DNA of 64,000 bases, from NCBI RefSeq assembly GCF_006517815.1, contig NZ_CP041198.1, forward strand, positions 1,488,001 to 1,552,000, given 5' to 3'. Both the position numbers and the translations under genes were made by a program. Within the stretch, counting starts at the first letter, position 1, and the number at the start of each line of letters is the position of its first letter. Source of the DNA: Pseudarthrobacter sp. NIBRBAC000502770 (lineage in GTDB: Bacteria; Actinomycetota; Actinomycetes; Actinomycetales; Micrococcaceae). This document shows positions 6,339-16,123 of this stretch, piece after piece. The notes below the pieces were generated by a model that saw only the letters and a program-made list of their open reading frames with translations, made no database searches and had not been told where the DNA came from.

Positions 6339-7727
6339 GTGACTGATCGCCCCGAAATTTACACCGTTGGTGAACTGCGTGCGGCCGGGTATGTCCTGAA
6401 GGACCTGAGGCATGAAATCCGGGACAACCTCCTCGCCGCCCTGGCTGCGGGGCGTGACCCGTGGCCCGGCCTGTACGGCTTCGGCCGGACAGTGGTTCCG
6501 CAGCTGGAGCGGGCACTGCTCGCCGGCCACGACGTCGTCCTCCTGGGGGAGCGCGGGCAGGGAAAGACCCGCATCCTCCGCACCTTGGCGGGGCTGCTGG
6601 ACGAGTGGTCGCCGGTCATCGAGGATTCAGAGCTGAACGAGCACCCCTTTGAACCCATCACCGAACAGTCACGCGCCCGGGCGCTGACCGAGGGGGACCG
6701 GCTGCGGGTGGCGTGGCGGCACCGTTCAGAGCGTTACGTGGAGAAGCTCGCAACACCGGATACGTCGGTGGCTGACCTCATTGGCGACGTGGACCCGATG
6801 AGGGTGGCCGAGGGCCGCCGCCTGGGGGATCCCGAAACCATCCATTACGGGCTGATCCCACGCTCCAACCGCGGCATAATTGCCATCAACGAGCTCCCCG
6901 ACCTCGCTGAACGCATCCAGGTGGCCATGCTGAACGTCATGGAGGAACGCGATATCCAGATCCGCGGCTACGTCCTGCGGCTTCCGCTGGACGTGCTGGT
7001 GGTGGCCTCTGCCAACCCGGAGGATTACACCAACCGTGGCCGGATCATCACGCCGCTGAAGGACCGCTTCGGTGCGGAAATCCGCACCCACTACCCGATT
7101 GAGCTGGAAGACGAAGTAGCGGTCATCCGGCAGGAAGGGCGGCTGGTGGCCGACGTCCCGCCGTTCATCCTTGAAATCCTGGCCCGCTACACCCGGGCGC
7201 TGCGGCAGTCCCCTGCCATCAACCAGGCCTCCGGCGTGTCGGCACGGTTCGCCATTGCCGGGGCAGAAACGGTGGCGGCAGCGGCCCTGCGCCGGGCCAG
7301 CCTGCGGGGCGAGGACCAGGCAGTAGCCCGGATCATCGACCTTGAGCCCGCCGTGGAGGTGCTGACGGGCAAAATCGAGTTCGAATCCGGCGAGGAAGGA
7401 CGGGAGGAGGGGATCCTGGACCACCTCCTCCGGACCGCCACCGCTGAAGCTGTCCGGGCCCACTTCCAGGGCCTGGACATGGGCCCCCTCGTGGCGGCCC
7501 TGGATGGGCACCGCACCGTCACCACCGGCGAACAGGTCACGGCACGGGAGTTCCTGGGCAACCTCCCGTCGCTGAACGGATCCGGCCTGTATGACGAAAT
7601 TGGGCGCCGCCTGGGTGCGGCCAACGACGGACAGCGGGCCGCCGCCGTCGAACTGGCCCTTGAAGGGCTGTACCTCGGCCGGCGGATCTCCAAGGAGTCC
7701 GACGACGAGGAAACCATCTACGGCTAG
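6339..7727 (+). CDS. MoxR/ChlI-type AAA+ ATPase
   Basis: A 462-residue AAA+ ATPase related to the magnesium chelatase I subunit. Walker A is GERGQGKT at residues 70-77. The Walker B position reads IAINELPDL near residue 190, with Asn in place of the usual Asp before the catalytic Glu. SANPEDYTNRGRI follows as the sensor-1 region and LKDRFGAEIRTHYP as the arginine-finger region. No other chlorophyll or cobalamin chelatase genes are present, so it is better read as the ATPase of a MoxR-VWA pair. Size and order resemble the M. tuberculosis Rv0958/Rv0959 pair. The GTG start has TACCGT six bases before it. The gene is 14 bases from its VWA partner and clearly in one operon with it. Confidence 0.9.
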   Translation: MTDRPEIYTVGELRAAGYVLKDLRHEIRDNLLAALAAGRDPWPGLYGFGRTVVPQLERALLAGHDVVLLGERGQGKTRILRTLAGLLDEWSPVIEDSELNEHPFEPITEQSRARALTEGDRLRVAWRHRSERYVEKLATPDTSVADLIGDVDPMRVAEGRRLGDPETIHYGLIPRSNRGIIAINELPDLAERIQVAMLNVMEERDIQIRGYVLRLPLDVLVVASANPEDYTNRGRIITPLKDRFGAEIRTHYPIELEDEVAVIRQEGRLVADVPPFILEILARYTRALRQSPAINQASGVSARFAIAGAETVAAAALRRASLRGEDQAVARIIDLEPAVEVLTGKIEFESGEEGREEGILDHLLRTATAEAVRAHFQGLDMGPLVAALDGHRTVTTGEQVTAREFLGNLPSLNGSGLYDEIGRRLGAANDGQRAAAVELALEGLYLGRRISKESDDEETIYG

Positions 7728-9745: not shown

Positions 9746-11707
9746 TTTCTCCCATCGAGCCCGGCCTGCGAGATGAGTTCGGTCAGCCAGGGACGGTGTT
9801 CGCGGTGGAACGTCAGGCCCGCGGGCAAGCCCTGCACCGCGGCTTCGCTGCCAGTGATGTCGATAGTGATGCGGCCGCCGGCCAGGGGTGCGTTGGTGAT
9901 GTGCAGGTTCCCGTAGGACTAGGGCAGGGCCGGATCCATCCAGAAACCGCCTCGGGAGACGTGGGCGTCATACCGCATCAGGCAGGTGATCAGCATGATC
10001 GGCGTGGTGGCCGCCCAGGCCTGCGGGGAGCATGCCGTGGGGTAGGGCACCGGCTGGGCAACCTGCTCCCGGCTGAAGCCGCAGAACAGCTCCGGAAGCC
10101 GGCCGCCGGAAAAGTCAGCGGCTTCAAGCAGTGCGGTGGCGATGCGCTGGGCCTCATCGACGAATCCGTACCGCATGAGTCCCGCCGCGATGATGGCGTT
10201 GTCGTGCGGCCATACGGAACCGTTGTGGTAGCTGGCCGGGTTGTAGGCGCCCATATTGGAGGCAAGGGTCCGGACACCCCAGCCGCTGAACATTTCCGGA
10301 GACATCAGCCGTTCAGCCACAAGCGGCACCTTGTCGTCGTCAACGATGCCACGCCACAGGCACTGCCCCATATTTGATGCGCAGGCATCAACCGGCCGTT
10401 TGCGGCCGTCCAGGGCAACTGCAAAGTAGCCGCGGTCCGGCAGCCAGAATTCCTCGTTGAACCGTTCCTTCAACCGTGCCGCCTCGGCGGTGAGCCGGGC
10501 TGCCAGGGGTGCATCCCCGGCATCAAATGCCATCCATGCCCGGGACAGGAGCGCTGAGTAGACGAGCGCCTGCACCTCGCACAGCGCGATGGGCGGTTCG
10601 GCGATGGTTCCGTCCGCAAAATTGATCCCGTCCCAGGAGTCCTTCCATCCCTGGTTGATGAGGGGCTGGTCGTTGAGGCGCTGGTACTCAACGAACCCAT
10701 CGCCGTCTTTGTCGCCGTAGTTCCTGACCCAGTCCAGGGCGCGGTCGGCGTTGGGAAGGAGAGCGGCAATGGTGTCCTTGCCGGTCCGCCAGCGTCTGCA
10801 GGGTGCCCAAGGCCAGGGACGGGTCCACGGGAAGGGCCATTTCCGAAGCCCACAGCGAGTCACGACCGAACAGGGTCATGAACCAGGGGGCGCCGGCTGC
10901 CACCACGATCCGTTCCGGATGCTCGGGGTCTTCGATCCGGAGAGCGCCGAGATCGTCATAACTGCGCCGCAGCGTCCGTTCAATGGAACGGTTCGTCATC
11001 TGCAGTCTGGGGATTTTGGCAACCCATTCCTGGTGCCGCCGGTCACTCGGGGAGAGCCCGTGCCCGGCCGGGCGCCAAACGTTGTCCTGTCCTGCGGGTG
11101 CCACGCTCAGCCTCGTGGACCACTGGCCGTAGCCGGGAATCACGGCATGGTATGCCAACGCGCCGGCGGAGGCGACGGCGCCACGGCCCCTGACCAGGAC
11201 GGCCTTCCGCAGGTCCTGCCAGGCCGCACTGATGATCAGCGAATCGCCGTCGGCTCCGCGGGTGACGTCCCAGCGCCGCTGGACCCTTGCTTCCTTCACC
11301 TCGAACAGGTCGGCAAAGTCCGAATCGACGCCGACGGAAACGTTGCAGGCGACGGGAAGGCCCGAGTAGTTGCGGATGGTGATTTCCTCGACCACTCCGG
11401 CTGCCACTTCACGCAGGCGCTCCACGATCAAAGGGCTGTCCGCGTACCCGTCGGCCCGGGGAACGCGGCCGATGAACAGTGCCCGGTAGGGTTCCTTCGT
11501 TTCCGCCGTCAGTGGTTCGAGCGGCGAGCCGTTCACAGTCATACTCCATCCGGACAGGATGCGGGTGTCCTCATGGAATACGCCGTGGGGCAGGTCCGGG
11601 TGGATGTCCCCGTTGGCGGCGGAGATGCAAAAACATGAGCCTTCCACCAAGGTGACGGTTCCCGCGCCCACCGGCCCCGCCGCTGTGTCTGAATTCCACC
11701 CGGCCAT
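9718..11707 (-). pseudogene. Glycogen-debranching-type amylo-alpha-1,6-glucosidase, broken
   Basis: The first 310 codons from ATG 11707 (AAAGGAG upstream) give the N-terminal domain of the debranching family (LVEGSCFCIS, GVFHEDTRILSGW, then PWFMTLFGRDSLWASEMAL). Near 10775-10790 the frame changes: LGTLQTLADRQG is followed directly, in another frame, by KDTIAALLPNADRALDWV. Homologues have roughly 50-60 residues between these blocks (a GRILHEVR ... YYGSVDATPLF region), so this is a deletion with a frameshift. A second lesion is an in-frame TAG at 9919-9921. After it the same frame continues with SYGNLHITNAPLAGGR and further family-like C-terminal sequence, open to 9718. A working enzyme would be about 700 residues. 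Two independent lesions argue for real decay, although an assembly error at the deletion is possible. Confidence 0.87.
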
Positions 11708-11861
11708 GTCCGCTCCTTTGACGGCTGCGATGCCTCCGGCGGGATAGACGCTACGCCTGTGGAAGGGCTGATGAAAGGGGAGGCGGCACCCTTGTACGTC
11801 CCGTCCGGTCGGGCATAACATGGCCGGCACATCGATGCCGATCAGTCCTGAGGAGGCAGCC

Positions 11862-12497
11862 ATGGGCGCCGCACCAGCTGAAATGTCACCAGCGACACTG
11901 ATGGTGGACCTGATCATCTCCCTGGACGGGTATGCCTCCGCCGAGGGGTGGCCCGGGTGGTGGGGACTGGAAGGGCCGGAATACCTGGCGTGGCTCGGCC
12001 AGGAGTCGGCAAAGGAGTACACCTTCCTCCTGGGGGCGAACACTTACCGGCTGATGTACGGAATGTCTGCGCAGGCCGCGGCAGACCGGTCCGGTTTCTC
12101 CGAGGAGGAGGGCGCCAGTCTCACCGGGCTGTCCGCCGTGCCGAAATTCGTTTTCTCCTCCTCGTTGCACGCGCCGCTGGACTGGCCGAACTCGACCTTG
12201 GTCACCGGGGACGCGGTTGAGGCGGTCCGCGAACTGAAGCGCACGCAAAAAGGGCCGCTGAGTACCCTGGGAAGCATCAGCCTGGCCCGGTCGTTGCTGG
12301 CGGCCGGTCTCGTGGACAGGTTCCGGCTGGTGATCTTCCCTGTGATCACCGGGGCCACCGGCCGGGAGCGGATCTACGATGGCTACCCTGATGTCCGGCT
12401 GGAGATGGTGCAGAGCAGGACGTTCGACGGCAGGCTCCAGCTTCTCGAGTACGTACCCACGGTGCTCACCGGGCCGCCGGGCACCCGGAAACAGTGA
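11862..12497 (+). CDS. RibD_C/dihydrofolate-reductase family protein
   Basis: A 211-residue NADPH-binding reductase-type protein of the DHFR superfamily, similar to the C-terminal reductase domain of RibD. Landmarks are VDLIISLDGYASAEG near the start, FLLGANTYRLM (active-site helix) and LSTLGSISLARSLLAAGLVDRFRLVIFPVITG, the usual GS.xL cofactor loop and beta strand. ATG 11862 is chosen over 11820 because GAGGAGG lies five bases before it. Many stand-alone members have no known substrate. It immediately precedes the GTP cyclohydrolase II fusion, but a separate promoter-like AT-rich region separates the two. Its 5' end is divergent from the debranching-type pseudogene. Confidence 0.85.
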   Translation: MGAAPAEMSPATLMVDLIISLDGYASAEGWPGWWGLEGPEYLAWLGQESAKEYTFLLGANTYRLMYGMSAQAAADRSGFSEEEGASLTGLSAVPKFVFSSSLHAPLDWPNSTLVTGDAVEAVRELKRTQKGPLSTLGSISLARSLLAAGLVDRFRLVIFPVITGATGRERIYDGYPDVRLEMVQSRTFDGRLQLLEYVPTVLTGPPGTRKQ

Positions 12498-12507
12498 TGC
12501 GAAGAAA

Positions 12508-12560
12508 ATACTTGAAGGTTGAAGTACTTTGGGTTACCTTTAAGTTTAAGTTTCAAGTAT
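12508..12560 (+). promoter_or_regulatory. AT-rich promoter with inverted-repeat operators before the GCH II fusion
   Basis: The sequence shows ATACTTGAA (12508-12516) and its exact inverted copy TTCAAGTAT (12552-12560). An inner palindrome, TACTT-N8-AAGTA, lies at 12509-12526. A plausible -35 TTGAAG (12519-12524) and -10 TAAGTT (12541-12546) with a 16-base spacer lie between them. The base composition is strikingly AT-rich for this genome. TACT-N8-AGTA-like sites are reported for HxlR/DUF24 regulators such as YodB; the identity of the regulator here is inference. Confidence 0.55.
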
Positions 12561-12587
12561 CCACTGCCCGCGATCCCGGAGGCTCTT

Positions 12588-14465
12588 TTGACCGTCGCCA
12601 CCCATGCAGCCCCGCCGCCGGGTTCCCTCCCCTTGGCTACAGTCCGCACCAGCGTCACCGTGCCGCTGCGATTTCCTGACGGCTATGGCACGACGGCGGA
12701 GGTCCTCACCTTTCACGGCCTGGCGGACGGCAGGGAACACCTGCTGCTCGCCCTTGGACCCTGGGAACAGTCGCTGCTGGGACAGGGCTCCGGGGCCGGC
12801 GGCGCCGGCAGCGGGGCCCCGCTGGTCCGGCTGCACAGCGAGTGCATGACGGGTGACGTCTTCGGCAGCGAACGTTGCGACTGCGGACCACAGCTCCGGG
12901 AAGCCGTCGAAAGCATTGCCGCCACCGGGGGTTTCCTTCTCTACCTCCGGCAGGAAGGCAGGGGCATCGGCCTGTATTCCAAACTTGATGCCTATGCGCT
13001 GCAGGACCGGGGCCTTGATACCTATGACGCGAACCTCGCCCTGGGGCATGGTGAGGACGAGCGCGATTACACGGCGGCAGCCCAAATGCTCAACACCCTT
13101 GGCGCCACCACGGTTCGGCTGCTCAGCAACAACCCGGACAAGGCCAACCAGCTGGTTGCACTGGGAATTAATGTCCAGCAGCAGGTTCGCACCGGCGTCC
13201 ACCTTACGGAGGCCAACTCCCGCTACCTTGCCGCCAAGCGCGACCGCACCGGCCATACGCTGGAACTTGGCCGCGCCGTTGACCATTCCGTGCAGCCCGC
13301 TGCCGGGACCGTGGCGGGCCTGCCGGACATGCCGGCCCGGGTCGCCGCGCTGGTTCCGGGGCTGCGCGCCAGGGCGGAAGAGGCCGAGAGGCTACGCCGG
13401 CTGCCGGAGTTGACAGTACAGGAGCTGCAGGAGGCCGGCGTCTTCCGCATCCTGGCGCCCGCCGCTGTGGGCGGGTATGGGCTGGGTGCGCGCACCTATG
13501 CTGAAGTTGTCCGGGTCCTTGCCAGGGGATGCGCCTCCACCGCCTGGACTGCCGGCCACCTTGCCGAACACGCCTGGATGCTGGCCCGTTGGCCCCGCGC
13601 GGTGCAGGAGGAGGTCTTTGCGGGCGGCCAGGTACCCCTTGCCGCCGCGACGAGCGCCCCCGTGGGAATGGCGCGGAAGGTACCGGGCGGCTACGCCATT
13701 TCGGGCCACTGGAGTTTCGCTTCGGGTGTGATGCACTCGCGGTGGGCCCTGCTGGCCGTGCAGCTCAACGGTGCGCGGCTGCAGGCGCTGGTTCCTGTAG
13801 CCGACCTTGAACTGCTCGACGCCTGGCACACCGACGGGCTGCGGGGAACCGGCAGCAATGACCTCCATGCCGACGGACTCTTTGTTCCGGACCATCGCGT
13901 GGTGGAATGGGCACTGCTCAGCAGCCCGGAGAACCCCGGCAGCCTGATCCACCAGGACGCGCTCATCCACGCACCCATGGCCATGCTCCTGAATCTCGTG
14001 GCGCCCGCCGCGGCCCTGGGATCCGCCGAGTACGCCATGGAACTTTTCCGGGAGCAGCTCCTGGTGCCAAGGCAAAAGAACGGCATCGAAACGCGGCAGG
14101 CGGATTCAACCCTCGCCCAGGCGCGCTACGCCCGGGCGGCCGGGGCCTTGGCTGCGGCACAACTGCAGTGGCAGGCGGCCCTGTCCGTACTGCCCCCGGA
14201 GGGGCAGGCTGCTCCCGCATTGGCTGAGGATCAGCACGCCTCGTTCCGGCTCTCCCTCGCCCTCAGCGCCGAGGCCTCGCAGGAGGCGGTCCGGCTGGCG
14301 GTGGGCGGCTCAGGCGGCAGCGTGCACCGGCTCACACACCCGCTCCAGCGCATCCAGCGGGACATCGGCGTGCTCCTGAACCACCCAACCCTGGGCATCG
14401 ACGCCATCCTGGAGCAGTCGGGACGGGGCCTGCTGGGGCTGGGATTCAGCACGCAGTCCTTCTAG
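12588..14465 (+). CDS. GTP cyclohydrolase II fused to an HsaA-type flavin monooxygenase
   Basis: A 625-residue fusion. Residues about 15-235 are GTP cyclohydrolase II (RibA). The zinc cysteines are intact (C86, C97, C99 in SECMTGD...RCDCG), as is RQEGRGIGL, and Y136 and R159 correspond to the E. coli catalytic Tyr105 and Arg128. There is no dihydroxybutanone-phosphate synthase domain. Residues about 248-625 have the acyl-CoA-dehydrogenase-like fold of two-component (group D) flavin monooxygenases of the HsaA/HpaH type: ERLRRLPELTVQELQEAGVF, GHWSFASGVMHSRWALLA, DGLRGTGSNDLHADGLFVP and HPLQRIQRDIG. Such oxygenases need reduced flavin from a separate reductase, and a flavin reductase is two genes downstream. 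TTG 12588 is preferred because GGAGG lies five bases before it; TTG 12519 would place the start inside the operator region. The combined function is unknown. Confidence 0.88.
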   Translation: MTVATHAAPPPGSLPLATVRTSVTVPLRFPDGYGTTAEVLTFHGLADGREHLLLALGPWEQSLLGQGSGAGGAGSGAPLVRLHSECMTGDVFGSERCDCGPQLREAVESIAATGGFLLYLRQEGRGIGLYSKLDAYALQDRGLDTYDANLALGHGEDERDYTAAAQMLNTLGATTVRLLSNNPDKANQLVALGINVQQQVRTGVHLTEANSRYLAAKRDRTGHTLELGRAVDHSVQPAAGTVAGLPDMPARVAALVPGLRARAEEAERLRRLPELTVQELQEAGVFRILAPAAVGGYGLGARTYAEVVRVLARGCASTAWTAGHLAEHAWMLARWPRAVQEEVFAGGQVPLAAATSAPVGMARKVPGGYAISGHWSFASGVMHSRWALLAVQLNGARLQALVPVADLELLDAWHTDGLRGTGSNDLHADGLFVPDHRVVEWALLSSPENPGSLIHQDALIHAPMAMLLNLVAPAAALGSAEYAMELFREQLLVPRQKNGIETRQADSTLAQARYARAAGALAAAQLQWQAALSVLPPEGQAAPALAEDQHASFRLSLALSAEASQEAVRLAVGGSGGSVHRLTHPLQRIQRDIGVLLNHPTLGIDAILEQSGRGLLGLGFSTQSF

Positions 14466-14525: not shown

Positions 14526-15464
14526 ATGCCCCAGCGCCTCATGCTGCTCGACACTGCCTCCCTGTACTTCCGCGCCTTCTACGGGCTGCCGGACACCATC
14601 CGCCGCCCTGACGGGACGCCGGTCAATGCGGTCCGCGGGTTGCTGGACATGATCGCCCGCCTCAGCACGGACTACCAGGCCTCCCACCTTGTGGCCTGTT
14701 GGGATGACGACTGGCGGCCGCAATGGCGGGTGGACCTGGTCCCCACCTACAAGGCGCACCGGGTGGCCCGGGCCGTACCCGGCGGCACGGACGTCGAAGT
14801 GGTGCCTGAGGGCCTGGAAGCGCAGCTGCCCATGATCCGCCGGGCGCTGGAGCTGGCGGGCATCGCCATTGTGGGCGCGGCCGGGCACGAGGCCGACGAC
14901 GTCGTGGGCACCTACGCCAGCCACGCCAGCCTGCCGGTGGACGTGGTCACGGGAGACCGTGACCTCTTCCAGGTGTGCGACGACGCCCGCGGGGTGCGGG
15001 TGATATACACCGCCCGCGGCATGAAGAACCTCGAGGTCATCGTGGAAGAGACCATAGTGGCCAAGTACAAAGTCCTTCCGCAGCAGTACGCGGACTATGC
15101 CACGCTGCGCGGCGATGCCTCCGACGGCTTGCCCGGCGTGGCCGGGATCGGGGAGAAGACGGCCGCGTCGCTGCTGCTCAAGTACGGCACCCTGGAACGG
15201 CTGCTGGAGGCGGCGGAAGCGGACGACGGCGGGGTGTCCGGTCCCGTCCGGGCCAAGCTTTCCGCCGCTGCGGCGTACCTCCAAGCAGCCCCCGCCGTCG
15301 TCCGCCTGGTGCGGGACCTCAAGCTGCCCACCCTTGAACAGGCAGGCGCGCTGCTGCAGCCGGTGACCGGTGGCCGGCGCTCCGAACTCGAGCAACTGGC
15401 CATCGACTGGAATCTGGGCGGCTCGGTCCGCCGGCTCCTCGCCGCGCTGGACCAGCGGGCGTAG
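14526..15464 (+). CDS. Stand-alone 5'-3' exonuclease (PolA N-domain/FEN type)
   Basis: A 312-residue structure-specific nuclease equivalent to the N-terminal domain of DNA polymerase I. The metal-binding acidic residues are present: LLDTASLYFRAFYG at the N-terminus, GHEADDVVGTYA, DVVTGDRDLFQV, then the helix-hairpin-helix region RGDASDGLPGVAGIGEKTAASLL. Such free-standing copies accompany a full PolA in many actinobacteria, as here (polA at 30237), and probably help remove RNA primers or flaps. It starts 60 bases after the monooxygenase fusion. GAGGAT ends six bases before ATG 14526, a weak leaderless -10, so it may have its own promoter. Confidence 0.92.
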   Translation: MPQRLMLLDTASLYFRAFYGLPDTIRRPDGTPVNAVRGLLDMIARLSTDYQASHLVACWDDDWRPQWRVDLVPTYKAHRVARAVPGGTDVEVVPEGLEAQLPMIRRALELAGIAIVGAAGHEADDVVGTYASHASLPVDVVTGDRDLFQVCDDARGVRVIYTARGMKNLEVIVEETIVAKYKVLPQQYADYATLRGDASDGLPGVAGIGEKTAASLLLKYGTLERLLEAAEADDGGVSGPVRAKLSAAAAYLQAAPAVVRLVRDLKLPTLEQAGALLQPVTGGRRSELEQLAIDWNLGGSVRRLLAALDQRA

Positions 15465-15607: not shown

Positions 15608-16123
15608 ATGACAGTCACATCAGATCTTGCTCCCCGCCGGCTTCGGGATATTTTCGGAACATTCGCCAGCGGCCTGACCGTAGTCACCGGTTCCACCCCT
15701 GACGGGCCGGCCGGCTTCACCTGCCAGTCCTTTGCGGCACTGTCGCTGGACCCTCCGCTCGTAACGTTCAGCCCGTCCCGCACGTCAACCACCTGGCCCG
15801 TGCTGCGGAAGGCCGGTTCATTCACCATCAACATCCTCCCCGCGGAACACCGGCACCTCGCCGGTCAGTTCGCCCGCTCCGGGGCGGACAAATTTGCCGG
15901 CGTGGAACACGCACCCTCTCCGCTGGGCAATCCGGTGCTGGACAATGCGCTCGCCTGGATCGACTGCGACCTGCACGCAGAGTATGACGGTGGCGACCAC
16001 ACCATCGTGGTGGCGGCCGTGCGGCACCTCCATGCCCGACAGGACGCCGAACCATTGCTCTTCTTCAGGGGCGCCTATGCAGGTCTTGAGCCGTTGGGCC
16101 ACCTGCTCGAAGCCGCCCGCTGA
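15608..16123 (+). CDS. Flavin reductase family protein (HpaC/HsaB-like)
   Basis: A 171-residue FMN/FAD-binding split-barrel protein of the NAD(P)H:flavin oxidoreductase family. The N-terminal RDIFGTFASGLTVVTG, the flavin phosphate-binding GFTCQSFAALSLDPPLVTF and SFTINILP are typical. The residues before the C-terminus (LLFFRGAYAGL) match the usual end of the family, LVFHRGRYG. These enzymes supply free reduced flavin to group D monooxygenases. The obvious local partner is the oxygenase half of the fusion at 12588. GAGAGGG precedes the ATG with suitable spacing, and TAACGAT about 20 bases upstream could be a -10. Confidence 0.9.
   Translation: MTVTSDLAPRRLRDIFGTFASGLTVVTGSTPDGPAGFTCQSFAALSLDPPLVTFSPSRTSTTWPVLRKAGSFTINILPAEHRHLAGQFARSGADKFAGVEHAPSPLGNPVLDNALAWIDCDLHAEYDGGDHTIVVAAVRHLHARQDAEPLLFFRGAYAGLEPLGHLLEAAR

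Follow-up and report, generated by a model that had tools for sequence, protein, structure and literature searches.

A second GTP cyclohydrolase II joined to a group D flavin monooxygenase behind candidate MarR-type operators in Pseudarthrobacter

Why would a bacterium join a GTP cyclohydrolase II (GCH II, RibA), the first enzyme of riboflavin synthesis, to an oxygenase of a flavin-using kind? The question is raised by a single gene in a 64,000-nucleotide stretch of Pseudarthrobacter sp. NIBRBAC000502770 (contig NZ_CP041198.1, forward-strand positions 1,488,001 to 1,552,000), hereafter the window, which we number from its first letter. A first-pass annotation of the gene had proposed that one 625-residue frame carries RibA together with a complete HsaA/HpaH-type oxygenase, and both parts of that proposal are confirmed by the open frame and by Pfam and NCBIfam domain matches. 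We call the halves RibA2 and Mox and consider it probable, on balance, that a MarR-type regulator controls them as one unit, so that flavin supply rises at the same time as an aromatic hydroxylase that uses flavin, the signal probably being quinone-like or aromatic. The gene and its parts are as follows:

12588..14465, + strand: RibA2–Mox fusion gene, an open frame of 625 residues with a TTG start at 12588
12578..12582, + strand: putative ribosome-binding site GGAGG, read from the sequence, five bases 5′ of the TTG
12588..13283, + strand: GCH II (RibA2) half, residues 1–232, with the PF00925 match and invariant catalytic residues
13284..13337, + strand: variable linker, residues 233–250, with low column conservation in the aligned fusions
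13338..14462, + strand: Mox half, a group D flavin monooxygenase, residues 251–625, with PF02771, PF08028 and the HsaA profile

The joined frame is a property of a protein family. A search that scored 7,994 candidates gave 2,788 matches; both domains are annotated in all 120 homologues listed, so the fusion is neither chance nor an assembly error. The full-length homologues listed carry the source names GCH II RibA or GTP cyclohydrolase, which mask the oxygenase. When the query and its 120 listed matches were aligned (121 proteins), mean column conservation was 0.87 over residues 20–230 and 0.81 over residues 253–620, and fell to 0.50 across the junction (residues 231–252). The TTG at 12588, compared by eye, aligns with the ATG of most relatives. 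Among plasmid records, no place covers 80% of the fusion protein, and an Rfam scan of the window returned neither a flavin mononucleotide (FMN) riboswitch nor any other known RNA at gathering scores. No description of a RibA–Mox fusion was found in the portions of the open-access literature consulted.

The first half has every mark of a GCH II. Residues 28–200 match GTP_cyclohydro2 (PF00925) at 177.1 bits (cut-off 23.3; E value 2.7e-52), and the NCBIfam GCH II RibA model (NF001591) scores 245.1 bits, above its cut-off of 148. The equivalog-domain model TIGR00505 gives 180.7 bits, under a cut-off of 205.85 that the canonical copy of the same genome passes; this shortfall points to a divergent RibA lineage, and we therefore assign the half at family level only. 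Its solved relatives are GCH II enzymes, the class that converts GTP to DARPP, formate and pyrophosphate. Cys86, Cys97, Cys99, Tyr136, Asp157, Arg159 and Lys185 are invariant across the 121 aligned fusions, which bears out the earlier observation that Cys86/97/99, Tyr136 and Arg159 are kept; by analogy with E. coli RibA, we take these to be the zinc-binding cysteine triad and the catalytic tyrosine and arginine.

The second half belongs to the acyl-CoA-dehydrogenase-like group D oxygenases. Acyl-CoA_dh_N (PF02771) matches residues 261–336 at 34.6 bits (cut-off 22.9) and Acyl-CoA_dh_2 (PF08028) residues 472–599 at 48.9 bits (cut-off 22.7). The HsaA profile covers residues 251–595 at 214.9 bits (E value 1.4e-63), under its equivalog cut-off of 450, and the HpaH C2 profile gives 152.8 bits, under its cut-off of 650. 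Solved relatives of Mox include HsaA, XiaF, Rv3094c and HpaH C2, enzymes that hydroxylate aromatic or other large substrates. When 65 selected fusions and relatives were aligned, Ser423, Arg591–Asp592 and His599, positions taken as hallmarks of group D flavin monooxygenases, did not vary.

Riboflavin synthesis in this genome has a GCH II of its own. Two GCH II genes are present, the fusion and a copy within a complete ribD-E-B-A-H operon elsewhere, and the possibility raised by the first-pass annotation that the genome might lack any other GCH II is thereby answered. We accordingly rejected the fusion as the sole riboflavin GCH II. The notion that it is the cell's ordinary enzyme draws on the intact GCH II residues, and it has next to no chance of being right given that the complete rib operon already includes a RibA and that the fusion RibA falls in a separate clade; for this genome it is refuted.

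That clade, which we call RibA2, also holds RibA relatives that stand alone, found in Actinoplanes, Catellatospora, Streptomyces and two further genera within the family, and canonical RibA falls outside it (support 99/98 on a midpoint-rooted tree with long branches and a bootstrap that had not settled). A RibD-family gene lies close by in 12 of 43 stand-alone RibA2 loci (L020–L062); it is approximately 380–420 residues long in seven Streptomyces loci and short, 222–271 residues, in the other five. The Streptomyces example that we scanned (L053) has a reductase domain followed by a deaminase domain. Among the 12 loci of the two other family genera (L122–L133), 3 also have a RibD-type deaminase 3′ of RibA2. 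Because RibD-family genes adjoin RibA2 loci, the lineage appears to tend to feed the riboflavin pyrimidine route. No unfused mox stands beside a stand-alone RibA2 in loci L020–L083.

How widespread is the joined form, and how firmly are its halves held together? We surveyed a family set of 295 genomes, 24 of them from the genus of the window, and a genus set of 198 genomes, on which the gene counts below rest; all mox counts rest on the matches listed. Among the matches listed family-wide, a match over both halves occurs only in the window's genus (9 of 24 sampled genomes), and close stand-alone RibA relatives (62–73% identity) occur in two other family genera. Across the genus, at least 76 of 198 genomes hold a mox orthologue or remnant. 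In 63 of those 76, mox runs without a break across almost the entire query; in 52 of the 63 it lies in an open frame of at least 600 residues. The fusion itself was verified on DNA for the loci that were fetched, 50 locus rows that include duplicates. All 11 uninterrupted mox genes with a shorter frame were inspected: seven are adjacent, separate ribA2 and mox genes, one has an assembly gap between its halves, and three have lost ribA2 wholly or partly. In each of the seven split genomes, ribA2 and mox have their own stop and start codons, which, judged by eye, lie 16–34 bases apart or overlap by a few bases in six genomes; in the seventh the distance is of similar size. Homologues are thus fused or adjacent, and the unrelated split loci that the first-pass annotation had held out as a possible outcome did not turn up. 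Fused and split forms interleave on both trees, at weak forks. Together with the decayed loci considered below, in which part of the single frameshifts could stem from sequencing error, these counts define the unit as an accessory ribA2–mox pair that is fused in most cases and can lose either half.

If the pair is the unit, what might control it? Two palindromes lie between the upstream RibD_C-like gene and the fusion, covering the putative −35 box and the region just past the putative −10 box:

12508..12527, + strand: candidate operator site 1, ATACTTGAAGGTTGAAGTAC, 16/20 matches to the palindrome
12541..12560, + strand: candidate operator site 2, TAAGTTTAAGTTTCAAGTAT, 16/20 matches to the palindrome, 33 base pairs (bp) from site 1
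12512..12540, + strand: putative promoter, assigned by eye, with −35 TTGAAG (12512–12517), a 17-bp spacer and −10 TACCTT (12535–12540)

At least one site (≥14/20) is present in 49 of 49 distinct ribA2 promoters, which comprise 33 fused, 7 split and 7 broken-mox loci, 1 with a gap and 1 with a damaged ribA2. Two sites occur in 45 of the 49, at a spacing of 32–33 bp in 44 of those 45; shuffled promoters gave a site in 23 of 2,450. Since the operator consensus was read from these 49 promoters, the counts are descriptive and not a test. Beyond the genus, an operator (≥15/20) lies directly 5′ of the stand-alone RibA2 in 17 of the 43 loci described above and 5′ of RibA2 in 6 of the 12 from the other family genera; in L052 an operator lies 5′ of the adjoining MarR gene. 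The 21 more distant loci L063–L083 gave four operator sites, none of them 5′ of ribA. The pair is also linked to a regulator: a dedicated MarR gene (≥63% identity) occurs in 33 genomes and lies within 3 kilobases (kb) of mox in 24 of them, that is, in 24 of the 76 genomes with mox; it co-occurs with mox (P = 3e-7). Here and below, P values serve as guides only, because genomes of one genus are related and not independent. The palindrome resembles the RosR site of C. glutamicum, a likeness that we do not use as evidence. The excerpt consulted of a paper on that regulator (PMC7764795) gives one RosR site only. Separately, one genus locus (L324, genome G339) has an additional 17/20 operator-like site at 7153–7172, just 3′ of mox.

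The operator extends beyond the fusion. A genome-wide search with the pattern, allowing up to three mismatches, returned six forward and five reverse matches at seven places in the window's genome, compared with one and one for the reversed pattern used as a control. Two places are at the fusion; others precede a VOC gene of the glyoxalase/dioxygenase superfamily, an F420/NADP reductase gene, a gene for a RutE-like nitroreductase-family protein and one further gene, presumably a MATE-type exporter. One match near ribonucleotide reductase genes may be chance. Conservation was scored over 30 loci for each of three genes, mostly the best-matching ones and with the own genome included (drawn from 60 VOC, 34 F420-reductase and 60 nitroreductase rows). 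The operator is kept in 30 of 30 VOC loci (2 of 1,500 when shuffled) and in 20 of 30 F420 reductase loci (1 of 1,500 when shuffled); the background was a site in 16 of 1,664 windows of 230 bases, from loci that include the ribA2 promoters themselves. Before the VOC gene (G000:C2:1961151-1962023; site 1962078-1962097), which is present in 60 of 61 sampled genomes, the operator stands as a near-invariant block in an otherwise poorly conserved upstream region. A MarR gene of the operator-linked family occurs in 197 of 198 genomes, and of six genomes in which such a gene was seen divergent from the F420 reductase gene, five (G303, G312, G332, G334 and G343) have a 20/20 operator between the two. 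The VOC loci, the F420 reductase loci and the MarR pairs are independent tests of the operator.

A pairing of flavin supply with oxygenation also has precedents outside this lineage. We inspected three annotated plasmid relatives of Mox, chosen by rank and independent of the window's lineage. Pseudonocardia plasmid pBCI1-2 (L328, 6919–11959) encodes, in a row, RibBA with both its domains, a flavin reductase, a group D oxygenase, a fumarylacetoacetate hydrolase and a VOC protein, possibly a cluster for aromatic catabolism that brings its own supply of flavin. On a Rhodococcus opacus plasmid, a DHBP-synthase gene lies directly 3′ of a group D-type oxygenase. An aromatic cluster of R. ruber Chol-4 and R. 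jostii RHA1 is described, in the section consulted of PMC6498646, as holding an acyl-CoA dehydrogenase type 2, RibBA and an NADH-FMN oxidoreductase. For engineered flavin monooxygenases, a passage of one review presents overproduced enzymes of the reduced flavin adenine dinucleotide (FADH2) pathway as an effective way of increasing FADH2 (PMC10958861). Separately, part of another report has the ordinary rib cluster of an Arthrobacter induced under mild drought (PMC9608346).

The first-pass annotation had further assembled a small pathway from the fusion, the RibD_C-like reductase gene upstream and a flavin reductase gene downstream. The neighbours concerned are these:

11862..12497, + strand: RibD_C-like reductase gene (PF01872), judged outside the unit
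14526..15464, + strand: 5′–3′ exonuclease gene (PF02739/PF01367), between the fusion and the flavin reductase gene, judged outside the unit
15608..16123, + strand: HsaB-like flavin reductase gene (PF01613; HsaB 193.8 bits, under the cut-off of 230), a plausible electron donor in a separate transcription unit

The upstream member finds no support. Within the 198 genomes, the RibD_C-like gene shows no co-occurrence with mox, whether at more than 60% identity (123 genomes, Fisher P = 0.23) or over all 129 genomes with a match (P = 0.45), although 12 of 76 genomes have it no more than 4 kb from mox; a pathway that includes it was rejected on this test. The downstream member fares better in one respect and no better in another. 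Its close orthologue (≥80% identity, 33 genomes) does not co-occur with mox (P = 0.43), whereas flavin reductase homologues taken together (89 genomes) do, being present in 50 of 76 genomes with mox and 39 of 122 without (P = 4e-6). Even so, a homologue lies within 4 kb of mox in just 10 of 76 genomes and within 15 kb in 16, and in G339 and G397 it stands 5′ of the unit, not 3′. In 15 genomes the RibD_C-like gene and the close reductase are at most 6 kb apart, and just two of these genomes have mox. Given co-occurrence of homologues with rare adjacency, a flavin reductase is a reasonable electron donor that is usually encoded elsewhere, and the RibD_C-like gene is background. The exonuclease gene lies near the fusion in 11 of 15 loci (L005–L019). 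Elsewhere in the window, on the − strand, a glycogen-debranching-type gene is seemingly broken, with its GDE_N_bis domain and its C-terminal glycosidase domain in overlapping frames (9919–10863 and 10688–12043), which could reflect decay or a sequencing error.

Several other RibA2 and Mox loci are recorded here for their surroundings. Five Streptomyces loci (L048, L049, L051, L052 and L053) have, besides a RibA2 that stands alone, a MarR gene belonging to the same family and a RibD-family gene that is long. On plasmid pCZY of Paenarthrobacter ureafaciens, which comes from a nicotine culture, a RibA2 gene (L187, 14959–15675) that nests within a split-form clade has no mox annotated nearby and lies near genes for an adenylate-forming enzyme and an enoyl-CoA hydratase. 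A further genus of the family has Mox relatives (38% identity), which sit in a cluster with what read, by name, as a thiolase, a second monooxygenase, and acetoacetyl-CoA-synthetase-like and fumarylacetoacetase-like genes; this cluster and the pCZY context both fit aromatic or heterocyclic compounds. In several loci of Plantactinospora, Actinoplanes and relatives (among L020–L029), RibA2 lies, as read by eye, near 6-pyruvoyl-tetrahydropterin-synthase-like, dehydrogenase, glycosyltransferase and methyltransferase genes, possibly an undescribed pathway. A plasmid of Streptomyces sp. NBC_01216 (L188, 5959–6624) has RibA2 amid a lantibiotic dehydratase and AMP-binding, ATP-grasp and condensation-domain proteins, a biosynthetic-looking cluster.

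How might such a unit work? A MarR-type repressor bound to the two palindromic operators, over the −35 box and the transcription start, would keep the gene off until an inducer, most likely a quinone, a hydroquinone or another aromatic, frees the repressor. The RibA2 half would then direct extra GTP into riboflavin synthesis, with the normal rib operon providing the remaining pathway, and the Mox half would take reduced flavin from a reductase encoded elsewhere and hydroxylate an aromatic compound. The benefit would be a matched supply and use of flavin through co-expression. The covalent join would be one state of a two-gene unit, which would require no channelling and may be neutral. The fusion with its kept GCH II residues, the second GCH II, the fused and adjacent forms, the conserved operators, their recurrence at other genes and the riboflavin genes next to related oxygenases elsewhere are observed; the repressor's identity, the inducer, the flavin-supply benefit and the aromatic substrate are what we infer in this scheme. 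We favour it because of the second GCH II, the adjacent two-gene form, the conserved operators at the fusion and at other genes, the MarR linkage, the RibBA precedents, the co-occurrence of reductase homologues, the RibD-family neighbours of RibA2 and the parallels with quinone and SoxRS regulons. Of the two roles that the first-pass annotation had sketched, flavin supply by the cyclohydrolase is thus the one preferred, on the second GCH II and the RibBA precedents, with the benefit of that supply a presumed one.

A number of observations weigh against co-regulated flavin supply and use. Either half can be lost without the other: 9 of the 13 broken-mox loci were inspected and 7 of them keep an intact ribA2, and mox is intact in the three genomes that have lost ribA2 wholly or partly. 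In the window no MarR gene stands next to the fusion, and its genome has no dedicated MarR gene; the closest MarR in the genome, at 46% identity, is far off and has a 13/20 site before it. No operator of at least 15/20 precedes the flavin reductase gene of the window, and the canonical rib operon has none. In the wider set, the operator is absent from 10 of 30 F420 reductase loci, the nitroreductase site is weaker (≥14/20 in 29 of 30 loci, ≥15/20 in 19 of 30), and one MarR–reductase pair, in G244, lacks the operator. The nitroreductase-family protein exceeds the malonic semialdehyde reductase cut-off, and the VOC protein is far under every dioxygenase cut-off. As for the precedents, their oxygenases are only ~31–33% identical to Mox, and the R. 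erythropolis plasmid relative, the third inspected, has a flavin reductase and no riboflavin gene nearby.

What, then, of the join itself? It may be functionless, neighbours under one promoter having been joined by loss of the ribA stop and drifting between fused and split states since. We regard this as a serious contender, somewhat short of an even chance: both trees mix fused with split forms, the linker is variable and the stop–start distances in split genomes are short, but with 52 of 63 uninterrupted-mox genomes showing a fusion-size frame, the fused form is, at the least, well maintained. Because this explanation concerns the join only, it is compatible with co-regulation, and its likelihood does not exclude that of the reading we prefer. 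A stronger role for the join would be to hand Mox its substrate inside the fusion, either the product of GCH II or the formylated intermediate, and so yield a modified pyrimidine, pterin or flavin-like compound. A fusion may signal that two steps follow each other, and the section consulted of PMC4921024 ties fusions to the instability of riboflavin intermediates; a study of 8-azaguanine, as far as its consulted text extends, weighed ring opening by a GTP cyclohydrolase and made its intermediate with E. coli RibA (PMC7109123). We nevertheless find this unlikely, since mox is kept without intact RibA in three genomes and RibA without intact mox in seven, neighbours vary between lineages with no biosynthetic set accompanying the gene, and related oxygenases beside RibBA sit in ring-cleavage clusters. 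Nor do the solved Mox relatives favour it, being hydroxylases of aromatic or other large molecules. The first-pass suggestion of an oxygenase acting on a GCH II product thus gained no positive support. A bolder version, in which the oxygenase, under electrophile-type MarR control, oxidizes the product of the GCH II half inside the fusion to give an undescribed pyrimidine- or flavin-derived redox compound against quinones, seems to us quite improbable.

The regulon invites one further explanation, in which RibA2 would be a stress sanitizer of oxidized guanine nucleotides instead of a flavin supplier. E. coli GCH II can hydrolyse 8-oxo-dGTP, according to work cited in the portion consulted of PMC6092379, and the operator-linked genes resemble a redox or electrophile regulon. 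Yet members of the lineage lie beside RibD-family genes, and RibBA, with its second riboflavin domain, lies beside a related oxygenase; we judge sanitization very unlikely.

Co-regulated supply and use of flavin, if true, would be a direct genetic link between making and using a vitamin-derived cofactor, with a second GCH II under a repressor common to detoxification-like genes and joined to the kind of enzyme that uses flavin. With RibBA beside related oxygenases in other actinobacteria, it would suggest that the supply of flavin is repeatedly coupled to the hydroxylation of rings, and the operator would offer a handle for finding the inducer.

Set against known systems, RibA2 shares with GCH II its family, zinc cysteines and active-site tyrosine and arginine, but differs in being the genome's second copy, in forming a clade of its own and in its fusion to an oxygenase; it also stands behind a MarR-type operator and scores under the TIGR00505 cut-off. 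Mox shares its domains and the GTGS region with HsaA and HpaH C2, and a C-terminal RD...H block with XiaF and Rv3094c, but scores under both equivalog cut-offs and usually has no reductase as a neighbour. The RibBA clusters (pBCI1-2, and that of Chol-4/RHA1) place genes for ring cleavage together with those for a GCH II, a flavin reductase and an oxygenase of the acyl-CoA-dehydrogenase-like type; they differ in having separate genes, RibBA in place of RibA, no fusion and an oxygenase ~33% identical to Mox.

Other systems join riboflavin genes to a second function or place them under stress control. The lux-rib operons link riboflavin genes to luciferase. The SoxRS-controlled ribA of E. coli is not known to be a second, fused copy. 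That gene belongs to the SoxRS regulon, and redox stress raises its GCH II, as stated in the consulted portion of PMC6092379. In COG3236 N-glycosidase fusions, a riboflavin gene is joined to another function, damage control (PMC4921024, same section). Both the COG3236 fusions and the lux-rib operons differ from the present gene in serving damage control or luciferase, with no group D oxygenase. The regulons that answer quinones in B. subtilis and S. aureus contain, in the text consulted of PMC6798810, dioxygenases and nitroreductases, that of QsrR in S. aureus also an FMN-linked monooxygenase. In these MhqR/QsrR regulons, as in the scheme proposed here, a MarR-family regulator governs monooxygenase genes and genes of the dioxygenase superfamily and the nitroreductase family. 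They belong to another phylum, and the MhqR operator given in the same text, TATCTCGAA-aTCGAaATA, is by eye a different palindrome; here, moreover, a GCH II gene is part of the set. Given this difference in operator, the Pseudarthrobacter regulon may work like the quinone regulons without being one of them.

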